A DNA stretch of 64,000 nt, from contig JAGWNF010000001.1 in assembly GCA_028871455.1 (NCBI GenBank), positions 1-64,000 of the forward strand, given 5' to 3'. Within the stretch, counting starts at the first letter, position 1, and every line of letters begins with the position of its first letter. The stretch comes from Alphaproteobacteria bacterium. Lineage in GTDB: Bacteria; Pseudomonadota; Alphaproteobacteria; ATCC43930; CGMCC-115725. Below are positions 20,202-63,644 of the stretch, one piece after another. Below the pieces are notes generated by a model. The model ran no database searches. It saw only the letters and a list, made by a program, of their open reading frames with translations, and had not been told where the DNA came from. Both the position numbers and the translations under genes were made by a program.

Positions 20202-22016
20202 ATGTCGACCGAGGCTGCAACAACAACCACGCCAAAAAACGCCGATGCGGCGCGGCAGATCAGCCTCGTTCAGTTGTCGCTGCTCGCCATTGCGGTCGGG
20301 ATCGTCGGCGGTGTCGGCGCGGTGGTTTTCCGCGGTTTGATCGCCCTGTTCCATAACTTTTCGTTTCTCGGGATTTTCTCTGTCATTTACGACGCCAACG
20401 TGTTCACCGCACCGAGTCCATGGGGTGCGGCGGTTATCTTGGCGCCGGTCATCGGGAGCATCCTCGTCACGCTCTTGGTCACGAGGTTCGCGCCCGAAGC
20501 CAAGGGGCACGGCGTGCCAGAGGTGATGGACGCGATCTATTATAATCAAGGCAAGATCAGGCCCGTGGTCGCGGTGGTGAAATCGCTGGCGTCGGCGATC
20601 TGCATCGGCACCGGCGGCGCGGTGGGTCGTGAGGGGCCGATCATCCAGATAGGCGCCTCCTTTGGCTCCACCATCGGCCAAATCATCCGCATGGCGCCGT
20701 GGCAGCGCATCACGCTGGTCGCAGCCGGCGCTGGCGCCGGCATCGCCGCAACGTTCAACACGCCGATCGGCGGCGTCATGTTCGCAATCGAGCTCATGAT
20801 GCCAGAGGTCAGCGTTCGGACGTTCCTACCGGTCGCGCTCTCGACCGGTACCGCAACGTTCATTGCCAATCTGGTGCTTGGGCCCCAGCCGGCATTTTCG
20901 GTTCCGGCGCAAGCGTTGATCGGCAGCCACCCGGCATCTCTGTCGGCGCTGCTGCTATTCGCGCTGCTCGGAATCATCATCGGGCTTGCCGCCACAATCT
21001 TCGTGCGGGCGATACCTTTTGCCGACGATCAATTCGACCGGATCAAGAATCCGTATCTGCGTCACGCCCTCGGCATGGTTGCCGTCGGCGTGCTGTTCTA
21101 CACGTTATATCGGATTTTTGGCCACTATTACGTCGAAGGCGTCGGCTACGCGACCATCCAGGCTTTGCTGCTCGGCCAGATGACGACGTTGCTGTATATT
21201 CTTCCGCTGCTCTACATCTGCAAGCTGATCGCGACGTCCCTGACGCTCGGCTCCGGTGGATCGGGCGGCATCTTCTCACCGTCACTATTCATGGGCGCGA
21301 CGTTGGGCGGCGCGTTCGGCGCGGTCGTCGACGCCATCCATCCGGTAGCCGGTGCGTCTCCCGGCACGCTCGCGATTGTCGGCATGGCGGCCATGGTCGG
21401 AGGCGGCACCGGCGCAGTGATGACCGCAGTCACCATGATCTTCGAGATGACGCGCGATTACGGCATTGTCATGCCGATGATTGTGGCGGTGGCGCTCAGC
21501 GTCGGCGTGCGGCGCATGCTGTCGCGGGAGAATATTTACACCATCAAGCTCGTGGATCGCGGTCATTACATACCGAAGGCGCTACACGCTAACATGTTCC
21601 TGGTCCGCCACGCCGCGGACGTGATGGATTCCGACGTATTGGTGCTGCCGGCAAGCGCCGATTTCGACGGATTCCTGCGACAACCGACACACAAGGGTGC
21701 GTTCAAACACGTCGTGGTGACGGAGGGTGATCGGATCGTCGGAGTGTTGCGCGTCAACACCGCGTTCCGCCGGGGGCTCGAGGATACGTCTACCGGCGTT
21801 ACGCTCGGCGACGTGGCGCAGAAGAACTTCGTTGTCGCCGACGCGGACGAGATCGTCTTCGACGTCATCGAGCGGATGTGGCGCGAAGGTGCAGCCATGG
21901 CCGTGGTCGTCCGTAGCCACGGCAAGGCCCGCGCCAGCGATGTCCGCGGCATGATCTCGAAGGAGCACGTTGCGGATTCGGTGGCCGAAAGCATTCGGCC
22001 CTACGGCGCCGCATAG
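20202..22016 (+). CDS. CLC-family chloride channel or antiporter with C-terminal CBS pair
   Basis: The 604-residue membrane protein has the CLC core (about 25-440) with KGHGVPEV, the gating-Glu motif GREGPIIQIG, and GSGGSGGIFSPSLFMGA, followed by two CBS domains (about 470-600) facing the cytoplasm. In E. coli ClcA the first motif is GSGIPE; here Ser is replaced by His (GHGVPE). The second proton Glu region reads FAIELMM rather than a double Glu. This may mean channel-like rather than antiporter behaviour, which is inference. It stands alone in its own transcript. Confidence 0.9.
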   Translation: MSTEAATTTTPKNADAARQISLVQLSLLAIAVGIVGGVGAVVFRGLIALFHNFSFLGIFSVIYDANVFTAPSPWGAAVILAPVIGSILVTLLVTRFAPEAKGHGVPEVMDAIYYNQGKIRPVVAVVKSLASAICIGTGGAVGREGPIIQIGASFGSTIGQIIRMAPWQRITLVAAGAGAGIAATFNTPIGGVMFAIELMMPEVSVRTFLPVALSTGTATFIANLVLGPQPAFSVPAQALIGSHPASLSALLLFALLGIIIGLAATIFVRAIPFADDQFDRIKNPYLRHALGMVAVGVLFYTLYRIFGHYYVEGVGYATIQALLLGQMTTLLYILPLLYICKLIATSLTLGSGGSGGIFSPSLFMGATLGGAFGAVVDAIHPVAGASPGTLAIVGMAAMVGGGTGAVMTAVTMIFEMTRDYGIVMPMIVAVALSVGVRRMLSRENIYTIKLVDRGHYIPKALHANMFLVRHAADVMDSDVLVLPASADFDGFLRQPTHKGAFKHVVVTEGDRIVGVLRVNTAFRRGLEDTSTGVTLGDVAQKNFVVADADEIVFDVIERMWREGAAMAVVVRSHGKARASDVRGMISKEHVADSVAESIRPYGAA

Positions 22017-22026
22017 CTCGACGCGC

Positions 22027-23100
22027 CTAGTGCGCGGGCGGCACTGTCGGCAAGACATACGGGCCGTGATCGACGACGACATTGCGGTCGGCTGCGGCGT
22101 CGAGCTTCGTGCGGCCCACACCTGACGAGGCGCCCGGCGTCGATGTACGCAGGGGCGTGCTGGCGGCGACATTCGGCAATTTCGGCGTCACCGGCACGAG
22201 CAGGCCGGTCCGCGCGAGGCCGGCGCGTTCGACTGCGTTCCAATCTACCTGATCGTGATAGGCGCCCGCCGCCGCTGCGACGCGGCCGACCAGGTCGTCA
22301 GGGATCTTCGGCCTCACCGGCTCGACAAGATCGAGTTGATCGGTCTGCGACTGGCTCGGATGAATGGCGACGTACAACCGACCGTCAATCCACGCCGTCA
22401 GCACCGGCTGATCGACGACGCGCACCGGCGTGCCAACCGGAACCTCGCTGAAGAGGCGCTGAATATCTTCTGGATAAAGATGGATGCAGCCGTGGCTGAC
22501 GTTGCGGCCAACGCCATCCGGCTTGTTGGTGCCATGGATCAGGTAATCGGTCCAGCCTAGATGCATCGCGTAGGCACCCAGCGGGTTGTCCGGGCCGGGC
22601 AGAACGAATTTCGGTAACGTCGGATCTTCGGCGTGAATCGAAGGCGGCGGATACCAGATCGGATTTTTTTCCTTCCGCACCACCTTGGTCGGGCCGACCA
22701 GGGTCCGCTTGCCCTCGACGCCGACGCCGACGGGAAATGTCTCCACCGTCTTGCCGTCTGGATGGAAATAATAGAGTCGACGCTCGCCGAGATTGATGAC
22801 GATGCCGACATGCGGTGCATCCGGCAGCACGAATTGCGTCGGTACGACGACATGCGTGCCGTCGCCCGGCAACCAAGGATTGACCCCCGGGTTAGCCGCG
22901 ACCAGTTCGGCGTAGCCGATATCATACGGCCGCTGCAGCGCGACCAGCGTGTCGTTCGGTTTTGTGGTGTAGCTCTGTACGGAGCCAAGAACCGTTTGAT
23001 TCGGCGCGAGCGTGAACTCGGCCGCGCCGGCGGGCGCGGCGAGCGAGAGAATCAGCAATGCGGCGAGGCTGGGGACGCGTCGGGGGCCACAAGGATTCAT
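22027..23100 (-). CDS. L,D-transpeptidase of the ErfK/YbiS type with LysM-like region
   Basis: The 357-residue exported protein has a signal peptide ending near APAGAAE, a LysM-like segment (YTTKPNDTLVALQRPYDIGY, about 45-95) and the YkuD domain (about 98-235). The catalytic motif is IHGTNKPDGVGRNVSHGCIH, with the Cys nucleophile in SHGC. The C-terminal ~100 residues are Pro/Thr-rich. Such enzymes make 3-3 crosslinks or attach a lipoprotein's C-terminal Lys to diaminopimelate. A Braun-like lipoprotein gene ending in Lys lies just upstream on the same strand, favouring the attachment role. Confidence 0.9.
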   Translation of the reverse strand: MNPCGPRRVPSLAALLILSLAAPAGAAEFTLAPNQTVLGSVQSYTTKPNDTLVALQRPYDIGYAELVAANPGVNPWLPGDGTHVVVPTQFVLPDAPHVGIVINLGERRLYYFHPDGKTVETFPVGVGVEGKRTLVGPTKVVRKEKNPIWYPPPSIHAEDPTLPKFVLPGPDNPLGAYAMHLGWTDYLIHGTNKPDGVGRNVSHGCIHLYPEDIQRLFSEVPVGTPVRVVDQPVLTAWIDGRLYVAIHPSQSQTDQLDLVEPVRPKIPDDLVGRVAAAAGAYHDQVDWNAVERAGLARTGLLVPVTPKLPNVAASTPLRTSTPGASSGVGRTKLDAAADRNVVVDHGPYVLPTVPPAH

Positions 23101-23185
23101 GCCATTCTCCCGACGGAGTCGAACGCGACACGGCGCGTCCGGAAAGCGCGGCGAACACCGCGCGATCCGGCGCCCGCAAACCCGG

Positions 23186-23401
23186 TTACTTCTGCAGGCT
23201 GCGCTGATACTGGCGATTGCCTTGCATATTGGCCTGCTGCGCTTCCTTCAACGCCTCCTGGGCCGTCGCCAAAGCCTGATCGGCTTTCTGGTTGGCGGCC
23301 GCGATTTGGGCTTCGAGAGACGAATTGTTGGTCGGCTGGCTCTGACAGGCGGCGAGAGCCAACGGCGCACAAATCAGCAGAAGTTTTGCACCACGAAACA
23401 T
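23186..23401 (-). CDS. Lpp-like (Braun-type) alanine-zipper lipoprotein with C-terminal lysine
   Basis: The 71-residue precursor starts MFRGAKLLLICAPLALAAC; the lipobox LAAC puts the lipidated Cys at residue 19. The mature part is a heptad-patterned alanine zipper (LEAQIAAANQKADQAL and following) like E. coli Lpp, and the last residue is Lys (RSLQK), the one Lpp uses for covalent attachment to peptidoglycan. AAGGAGG lies 6 bases before the ATG at 23401; the upstream in-frame ATG at 23452 lacks family support. The L,D-transpeptidase gene follows 85 bases downstream in the same direction. No named alphaproteobacterial homologue is known to me. Confidence 0.75.
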   Translation of the reverse strand: MFRGAKLLLICAPLALAACQSQPTNNSSLEAQIAAANQKADQALATAQEALKEAQQANMQGNRQYQRSLQK

Positions 23402-23608
23402 AACTGCCTCCTTGCAATGGATTGCACAGGGATCCGGCCCACTGCACAGCAAATAAGCCTCGGAACCGGCGGGGGCCAGCGGCGCCGACTGCGATGCTGC
23501 ATCCCGACCATATAAACGCGACCCAAACCTTCCGGTGCCACGGTTACAGCTAATTTATTGTCACCGTAGTCACAGATTAGTCATCAGGCTCGGAGGCCGT
23601 ATCAAATA

Positions 23609-62753: not shown

Positions 62754-62764
62754 CAGTGGAATCT

Positions 62765-62815
62765 TCAAGGGGATGGGGTTCCCCAAAACCGCTCGCAAGA
62801 GCTGATGACTCCTGC
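62765..62815 (+). ncRNA. Fluoride riboswitch (crcB motif)
   Basis: The aptamer consensus is clear: GGGGATGGGGTTCCCC, then AAAACCGC, a short hairpin and CTGATGACTCCTGCC. These are the conserved GGNGAUGG / CUGAUGACUCCU elements of the crcB motif, which binds fluoride through Mg. It precedes crcB, its commonest target, and is followed by a terminator, so it should act as a transcriptional ON switch. Confidence 0.93.
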
Positions 62816-62827
62816 CGCTTAGGGATG

Positions 62828-62868
62828 CGGCGGGCTGCGTCGCCACCCGCCGGAGTGCGGGTTTTTTT
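62828..62868 (+). terminator. Riboswitch expression platform: antiterminator and intrinsic terminator
   Basis: The terminator stem ACCCGC (62845-62850) / GCGGGT (62857-62862) is followed by a T-run (62862-62868). An alternative stem CGGCGGG (62828-62834) / CCCGCCG (62846-62852) uses the same left arm and would prevent termination. Fluoride binding is expected to favour read-through. Confidence 0.8.
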
Positions 62869-62901
62869 GTGCCCGCGAACGGCGCAAAGGAGTAATGGGC
62901 G

Positions 62902-63288
62902 GTGATGACCTATCTTTGGATCGCACTGGGCAGCGCGCTCGGCGGCATAGCGCGATTCTGGTGTTCGAGCACGATCGACCGGATGATCGGCGAGACCTTT
63001 CCGTGGGGGACATTCATGGTCAATGTCACCGGTTCATTCGTCATCGGCCTGCTCGGGACCTTGTCGGGACCCGAGGGCCGCTGGTTCTTGCCGACTGACG
63101 CGCGCATTTTCGTCATGGTCGGTTTGTGCGGCGGGTACACCACTTTCTCGTCGTTCAGCTACCAGACCCTGAATCTCGCGCGCGACGGCGAATGGCTGTG
63201 GGCAGGCGCCAATGTCGTCATGTCGGTGGTCGTTTGCCTAGCCGCTGTATGGTTCGGCCACGTCGCCGCAGCGGCGATCAATCGGTAA
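62902..63288 (+). CDS. crcB: Fluoride channel Fluc/CrcB
   Basis: The 128-residue protein has four membrane helices and the Fluc signatures GGIARFWCS, WGTFMVNVTGSFVIGLL and GLCGGYTTFSSFSYQTL. It exports fluoride as a dual-topology dimer. GTG 62902 (or ATG 62905) has AAAGGAG upstream. It is the direct target of the riboswitch. Confidence 0.96.
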   Translation: MMTYLWIALGSALGGIARFWCSSTIDRMIGETFPWGTFMVNVTGSFVIGLLGTLSGPEGRWFLPTDARIFVMVGLCGGYTTFSSFSYQTLNLARDGEWLWAGANVVMSVVVCLAAVWFGHVAAAAINR

Positions 63289-63302
63289 TGCGAGGACTCC
63301 CC

Positions 63303-63644
63303 ATGCAAATTCCGAAGGACGCGGCGCTGTTGCGTATCTTCATCGGCGAGAAGGACCGTCACGGTCACCAGCCACTTTACGAGGTCATTGTTTTAAGGGC
63401 GCGCGAAGCCGGACTCGCCGGTGCGACGGTTATCCGCGGGCCGCTCGGCTTCGGTCAGTCGAGTATCCTGCATACCGCCAAGATCCTGCAGCTTTCGGAA
63501 GATCTGCCGATCATTGTCGAGATCGTCGATGCCGAGGCGCGGATTGAAGCCTTCCTGCCGACGCTCGACGCCATCATGACGAGCGGCCTGGTCACAATCG
63601 AAAAGGTGCGCGTGATCCACTACGGCAAGGGCGCCAAGGGCTGA
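63303..63644 (+). CDS. DUF190 family protein, fluoride-linked
   Basis: The 113-residue protein starts MQIPKDAALLRIFIGEKDRH and includes GLAGATVIRGPLGFGQSS and LPIIVEIVDAEARIEAFLP, the DUF190 (PII-like) pattern. DUF190 genes are frequent neighbours of crcB. ATG 63303 has GAGG 8 bases upstream; an ATG overlapping the crcB stop (63288) would add 5 residues. Confidence 0.9.
   Translation: MQIPKDAALLRIFIGEKDRHGHQPLYEVIVLRAREAGLAGATVIRGPLGFGQSSILHTAKILQLSEDLPIIVEIVDAEARIEAFLPTLDAIMTSGLVTIEKVRVIHYGKGAKG

Follow-up and report, generated by a model that had tools for sequence, protein, structure and literature searches.

A small lipoprotein ending in lysine beside an L,D-transpeptidase: a conserved locus, probably of the Lpp/OprI kind, in Alphaproteobacteria

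Two adjoining genes in a 64,000-nt stretch of an alphaproteobacterial contig (positions 1 to 64,000 of JAGWNF010000001.1, hereafter the window) raise the question whether some Alphaproteobacteria own an outer-membrane tether of the kind formed by Lpp. According to the accessible parts of the respective articles, Lpp is restricted to closely related Gammaproteobacteria (PMC8263019, in a survey that used PF04728), is without a known homologue in alpha-proteobacteria (PMC10470753) and is missing from most alphaproteobacteria, with the donor in R. sphaeroides, where Tri-Lys-Arg occurs, given as unknown (PMC10470522). Excerpts of further papers describe Brucella/Rhizobiales and Agrobacterium as being without Lpp (PMC10787603, PMC11527210) and Rhodothalassium as being without a Braun homologue (PMC11762602). 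Among the literature matches listed, in which subscription journals are mostly not covered, we recognised no report of an alphaproteobacterial Lpp/OprI-like lipoprotein or of such a gene pair, and found statements of its absence. A sequence-only reading of the window had proposed a 71-residue lipoprotein with a terminal lysine, 85 bp upstream of a YkuD-domain L,D-transpeptidase (LDT) on the same strand. Translation of the lipoprotein gene and the YkuD match of the enzyme bear out this arrangement, the features of which are as follows.

22027..23100, minus strand: L,D-transpeptidase of 357 aa with a YkuD domain, proposed to anchor the lipoprotein (PF03734 at 94.7 bits; identity to known LDTs; fold match)
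22480..22497, minus strand: catalytic motif SHGCIH with the nucleophile Cys205 and with His207 (alignment of LDT motifs)
23186..23401, minus strand: gene of an Lpp/OprI-like outer-membrane lipoprotein, 71 aa (translation; relatives; NF040598 Lpp/OprI at E=0.002, under its cut-off)
23189..23191, minus strand: codon of the C-terminal Lys71, proposed peptidoglycan attachment point (last residue, directly before the stop)
23192..23326, minus strand: rod-like helix spanning residues 26-70, its alanines at a and d of the heptad (AlphaFold2 and 12-row alignment)
23345..23347, minus strand: codon of the lipobox Cys19 (LAAC), predicted lipidation site (Cys invariant in a 12-row and a 32-row alignment)
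23407..23413, minus strand: Shine-Dalgarno-like AAGGAGG, 5 nt before the ATG of the lipoprotein gene (read from the sequence)

The smaller gene encodes a signal peptide followed by the lipobox LAAC with Cys19 and ends with Lys71. We infer that the protein is lipidated, sorted to the outer membrane and oligomeric. A spurious open reading frame was rejected, as 11 relatives align to the window protein at 34-90% identity. Alanines 36, 40, 43, 47, 50, 54 and 57 follow a 4-3-4-3-4-3 spacing, which had been read as an alanine zipper. For the window protein alone this spacing exceeds chance only weakly, being reached by 4% of shuffles, and several other families, f73 and f16 among them, lack an excess of alanine at a/d positions in a single-sequence shuffle test. 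However, all seven alanines are invariant in the 12 aligned rows (the window protein and 11 relatives) and the AlphaFold2 model of the lipoprotein contains one helix, residues 26-70. The terminal lysine of the supposed Lpp-like protein proved to be conserved: an unfiltered search with the single sequence turned up the lipoprotein in 10 of 99 genomes, among them that of the window, at ten intact loci and one broken locus. Each of the ten intact copies ends with the counterpart of Lys71. It is invariant in the 12-row alignment, and also in the 32-row alignment, most rows of which were chosen by a filter for a K at the end. At the locus no Rfam feature was found at gathering scores, and a search of the minus strand between 22900 and 23640 yielded neither a sigma-70-type promoter nor a terminator-like site.

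Against a tether, the window protein stays under the curated cut-offs of both lipoprotein models that it matches, with 16.9 versus 23.1 bits for Pfam Alanine_zipper (PF11839) and 18.6 versus 43 bits for NF040598. Membership in Pfam LPP (PF04728, a leucine-zipper model) was rejected, since this model is absent among its Pfam matches up to E=1, and a PDB search with the single sequence reached a best E-value of only 0.82. For the lipoprotein family at E<=0.01, NF040598 matched 29 of 32 members, PF11839 matched 26 of 32, and Pfam LPP matched one of 32, weakly (E=0.0086). The best PDB match of the family profile was 9tz4, 'Major outer membrane lipoprotein' (2e-5), an OprI-like chain that the profile matched to its very C-terminus, followed by two Lpp variants (0.0024 and 0.006). 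Counting against the tether, however, the 9tz4 match has a large composition bias, of 20.6 bits, and designed helical proteins come next at 0.02, with further Lpp variants down to 0.9 intermixed with unrelated helical proteins.

In the window LDT, YkuD (PF03734) reaches 94.7 bits, the cut-off being 23.4, and the fold matches that of the K. pneumoniae LDT 4lzh (E=1.4e-27); for the LDT profile the best PDB match is 9tyw (1.8e-93). The enzyme had been regarded as kin to lipoprotein-anchoring LDTs, and it is indeed a relative of E. coli LdtA/B/C/E (39% identity to LdtB and 36% to LdtE). It is 44% identical to the oprI-adjacent LDT of Pseudomonas, which from the locus numbering we take to be LdtPae2. 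The catalytic H189 and C205 are invariant in the LDT alignments. Two residues after the catalytic Cys the window LDT has His207, where E. coli LdtA/B/C/E have Arg; SHGCIH thereby departs from the (S/T)XGCh(R/N) signature of PMC10434034, and a His in place of Arg or Asn counts against the tether. Enzymes of the DpaA/LdtF type mostly have Ala (or Asn) at this position, and DpaA identity was rejected on the His of the motif and on the NCBIfam matches. The best of these is the LdtE model, under its equivalog cut-off (NF047955, 196.5 versus 480 bits), and two further models stay under theirs as well (NF007563, 177.3 versus 517; NF007612, 176.2 versus 583). His at this position occurs in 16 LDT rows, 13 of them with a lipoprotein partner (some loci counted twice), and is therefore no sign of a lost partner. 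It is found in all eight pair-linked loci examined of the window's family (L016-L023), SHGCIR being retained in G014 (L024).

The host genome (G000, a 3.0-Mb assembly of 51 contigs) encodes three further YkuD proteins, which have no match to NF047955, NF007563 or NF007612 at E<=0.01. One of them (L002) has the motif SHGCIR and reaches 264 bits, under the cut-off of 425, with NF007891, a model of 617 positions that presumably represents LDTs of the YcbB/LdtD type. The other two (L003 and L004, with TDGCIA and TEGCVA) have a DpaA-like Ala two residues after the Cys and are candidates for lipoprotein release; the DpaA match of one of them is weak (E=1.7e-5, 24.1 bits versus a cut-off of 365). Elsewhere in the window, a ClC-type chloride channel with CBS domains (20202-22016, plus strand) is convergent with the LDT gene and ends 10 bp from its stop. 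An ordinary fluoride riboswitch (Rfam RF01734, 59.7 bits; window 62760-63288, plus strand) lies upstream of an ORF that looks to us like crcB, followed by an overlapping ORF at 63126-63644.

We analyzed the pairing of the two genes in 387 evenly sampled alphaproteobacterial genomes, each 90% complete or more. The LDT lineage, defined by a match to the LDT profile A3 at E<=1e-50, was found in 46 of the 387 genomes, belonging to 22 families. As partner we called a small lipobox ORF within 500 bp of the LDT that has a terminal K and 38 or more residues in its mature part, so that the K count among partners is partly set by construction; the lipobox filter also accepted Pro at -2, which brought in G261 and G329. 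A partner was observed beside the LDT in 41 of the 46 genomes, at 41 of 52 LDT loci and in 18 of the 22 families, the 11 loci that are partnerless by this filter counting against the tether. A3 had been built from pair-carrying loci, 11 of whose genomes belong to the sample (G000, G003, G014, G120, G142, G174, G249, G319, G335, G362 and G370), and without these a partner was present in 30 of 35. When all small lipobox ORFs within 500 bp of the LDT are regarded, 41 of 55 end in K, and 13 of the other 14 have no lipoprotein-profile match. The controls gave no such case: a K-ending small lipobox ORF was found near 0 of 56 window ORFs (at least 250 aa, the finding itself excluded), and of 18 small lipobox ORFs lying more than 800 bp from any LDT none ends in K. 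Chance adjacency was rejected on these controls, and the conservation of the pair exceeds what chance would give.

Five of the 46 genomes have no partner by this filter. The LDT lies at a contig end in G049 and G431, the lipoprotein is broken by a stop in G191 and an unlinked copy is located on another contig in G134, while in G057 neither inspection of the locus nor the lipoprotein-profile search found a lipoprotein. Among the pairs, 32 are tail-to-tail, the commonest orientation; in eight (L188 and L189 included) the lipoprotein gene lies upstream on the same strand and in one downstream on the same strand. The mature tether ranges from 43 to 87 residues. Lipoproteins of family f130 have mature lengths of 43-50 residues and only 7-18% Ala, so that pairing does not depend on the zipper. 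Short lipoproteins with a terminal Lys and no alanine zipper (L196, L206, L212 and L216 of f130, as well as L100, L112, L114 and L120; e.g. ...VFREVQTK and ...TFSAAQSK) are arranged tail-to-tail with the LDT, some 330-480 bp away from it. In G261 and G329 (L214 and L217), LDTs with Gly two residues after the Cys (SRGCLG and SRGCMG) were observed beside a lipoprotein ending in GMRNK.

The two genes also go together when counted per genome, with up to 13 lipoprotein and up to 5 LDT candidates scored in each and kinship uncorrected. The lipoprotein profile A4, which derives mostly from loci of the class sample that had passed the filter for a terminal K, matched 50 of the 387 genomes at E<=1e-4. 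In 37 of these the match reaches the C-terminal end of the profile, and all 37 are among the 46 LDT-positive genomes; at the same threshold such a match was found in 0 of 341 LDT-negative ones. In the window's own family the 12-row profile revealed a convincing lipoprotein copy in 16 of 39 genomes, weak lipobox-only matches having been dropped; one of the 16 is G007, whose sole copy has residues beyond the Lys.

The sequence-only reading had named separate occurrence of the genes and relatives lacking the terminal Lys as arguments against it, and both were found, at the margins only. Lipoprotein copies without an LDT in the fetched flanks occur in G005, G018, G023 and G027 of the window's family and in G134. 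In a few copies residues follow the conserved Lys (Azospirillum ...SQRKTRS, G007 ...RKTSSTQ, second G009 copy ...RKVAPSQ), which counts against the tether; the copies with 3-5 such residues are L224 and L225 (Azospirillum brasilense), L078 (G007) and L089 (G009). In keeping with co-occurrence, in two of the three other genomes of the genus, G001 (85% complete) and G002 (100%), the LDT was not found and the lipoprotein-profile matches are weak, those fetched sitting in longer, Pal/OmpA-like frames. Among 22 LDT matches in relatives nine have an adjoining lipoprotein by the first filter, and LDT paralogues without a partner are present in the same genomes as paired ones. A second lipoprotein copy in G000 (L015, C30:11665-11877) is decayed, its reading frame being interrupted by a stop immediately behind the lipobox Cys, and no LDT match was found in its fetched flanks. 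On plasmid p3 of A. brasilense Sp7 the pair is annotated as 'alanine-zipper protein' and 'L,D-transpeptidase family protein', which indicates that annotation pipelines see part of the lipoprotein family. The pair is also present in Tistrella mobilis and Nitrospirillum viridazoti, and the LDT of the class-sample genome G270 is identical to that of T. mobilis over the compared stretch.

A search of genome contigs extended the comparison to other classes. A K-ending small lipoprotein lies beside 43 of the best 80 named LDT loci: 14 of 23 in Alphaproteobacteria, 21 of 40 in Gammaproteobacteria, 1 of 4 in Betaproteobacteria, 1 of 1 each in Nitrospirota and Desulfobacteria, 0 of 1 in Myxococcia and 5 of 10 where the class is unnamed. 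In a Nitrospirae MAG (L147) and a Desulfobacterales MAG (L173), and thus outside Pseudomonadota, such a lipoprotein is tail-to-tail with the LDT; these are single metagenome bins and may reflect transfer or a binning error. In a quick LDT tree, 89 mainly alphaproteobacterial rows, one from Myxococcota among them, are set apart from the remaining 59, one of which is labelled Rhodospirillaceae (L165); the split has a moderate support of 81 under a midpoint root and is consistent with mainly vertical descent, short of proof. In E. coli K-12, lpp (1757421-1757657, plus strand) and ldtE (1757721-1758725, minus strand) are convergent and 63 bp apart, and three Pseudomonas loci show a tail-to-tail arrangement of an OprI-like gene and an LDT. 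The proposal of a separate outer-membrane anchoring system was not sustained, given that the layout matches these loci and that the profile ties the lipoprotein to Lpp and OprI.

We consider it probable that the lipoprotein and the LDT make up a cell-wall tether of the Lpp/OprI type, in which the LDT would join Lys71 to meso-diaminopimelate. The mature lipoprotein (53 residues) would be a helical rod pointing towards the wall, probably as an oligomeric alanine-zipper coiled coil. At Cys205 the periplasmic LDT would be acylated by the third residue of a tetrapeptide stem, meso-diaminopimelate, with release of D-Ala, and would then transfer this acyl group to Lys71 at its side-chain amine, by which the outer membrane becomes joined to peptidoglycan. 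We infer both the covalent attachment and the part of the adjacent LDT in it. The excerpted text of PMC10434034 reports that P. aeruginosa LdtPae2 anchors OprI and that LdtPae2 in E. coli gives rise to a Tri-Lys-Arg muropeptide, for which it gives a calculated value of 1154.567, and by the same logic Lys71 is likely to be the acceptor. However, the same excerpt also states that lineage does not predict LDT function, which weighs against a tether.

The E. coli locus itself suggests another division of labour. Although ldtE lies 63 bp from lpp, the accessible part of PMC12729407 describes LdtE as a 3-3 cross-linker and LdtA/B/C as the anchoring enzymes, which speaks against anchoring by an adjacent LDT. 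The window lipoprotein could likewise be anchored via Lys71 by another LDT, with the adjacent enzyme mainly forming 3-3 cross-links; LdtE is the best NCBIfam match of the window LDT, under cut-off, and G000 has three more YkuD proteins to choose from. We hold this to be unlikely: one of the three matches NF007891 under its cut-off (264 versus 425 bits), the two others have the DpaA-like Ala, they lack a match at E<=0.01 to the three models that the window LDT resembles, and the window LDT is nearer to the oprI-adjacent LDT (44%) than to LdtE (36%). Since the catalytic-site Arg is His, the LDT of the window's family might also have turned into a lipoprotein-releasing amidase or an enzyme of altered specificity. 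As far as the excerpt of PMC8263019 goes, loss of the Arg marks DpaA, a change to Ala/Asn two residues after the Cys marking most DpaA-like, Lpp-releasing enzymes, and the His is shared by the eight pair-linked family loci, with SHGCIR in G014. Such a conversion appears quite improbable in view of the fact that DpaA-like enzymes mostly have Ala or Asn and not His, that G000 has two separate Ala-type YkuD proteins, one with a weak DpaA match, and that the rest of the window LDT aligns full length to transpeptidases.

We give still less credence to the idea that the lipoprotein is a free, non-covalent alanine-zipper protein which lies beside the LDT through coincidental clustering of cell-wall genes. 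The copies without an LDT in their fetched flanks and those extending beyond the Lys would fit it; in contrast, all ten intact loci from the unfiltered search retain the terminal Lys, the mature length varies from 43 to 87 residues, the pair recurs in three orientations, and the two genes are co-present across the 387 genomes (kinship uncorrected). A wider account that builds on the Lpp/OprI-type tether is put forward tentatively, at somewhat less than an even chance. It holds that the common ancestor of Alpha- and Gammaproteobacteria already had such a locus, that roughly an eighth of alphaproteobacterial species still use it, other lineages having beta-barrel tethers, that tether length (43-87) may tune periplasm width, and that the LDT of the window's family works with His for Arg. 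Length and zipper vary while lipobox, terminal Lys and LDT persist, for which reason tuning between lineages may be considered, and this natural series of tether lengths could be used to probe how a tether sets the width of the periplasm. The pair was found in a group described in print as being without Lpp, and its presence in 18 families and in cultivable hosts (Azospirillum brasilense Sp7, Tistrella mobilis, Nitrospirillum viridazoti) opens the question to muropeptide analysis.

Taken together, our findings identify a real and conserved locus for a probable tether of the Lpp/OprI type, a known kind in an overlooked place that is unrecognised in the alphaproteobacterial literature surveyed. 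Like PapS of Rhodospirillum rubrum, the window protein is a lipoprotein that would bridge outer membrane and wall in an alphaproteobacterial host; unlike it, it has no peptidoglycan-binding OmpA-like C-terminal domain, with which PapS is described in the accessible part of PMC11369160. With the beta-barrel tethers of Brucella and Agrobacterium it would share a covalent bond between outer membrane and peptidoglycan made by an LDT. In the excerpts of PMC12729407, PMC10787603 and PMC11527210 this bond involves the N-terminus of a beta-barrel, whereas a C-terminal Lys of a lipoprotein is proposed here. The features in common with E. coli Lpp are a small lipoprotein, a helical rod, a C-terminal Lys and an adjoining LDT gene, but the window protein is an alanine zipper with 53 mature residues versus 58 in E. 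coli, its gene is co-directional and not convergent with that of the LDT, and the LDT has SHGCIH versus S-x-GC-h-R. With Pseudomonas OprI it has in common the alanine-zipper lipoprotein, the C-terminal Lys and an adjoining LDT that is 44% identical, the differences being that Pseudomonas belongs to another class and that the genes are convergent there and co-directional in the window.
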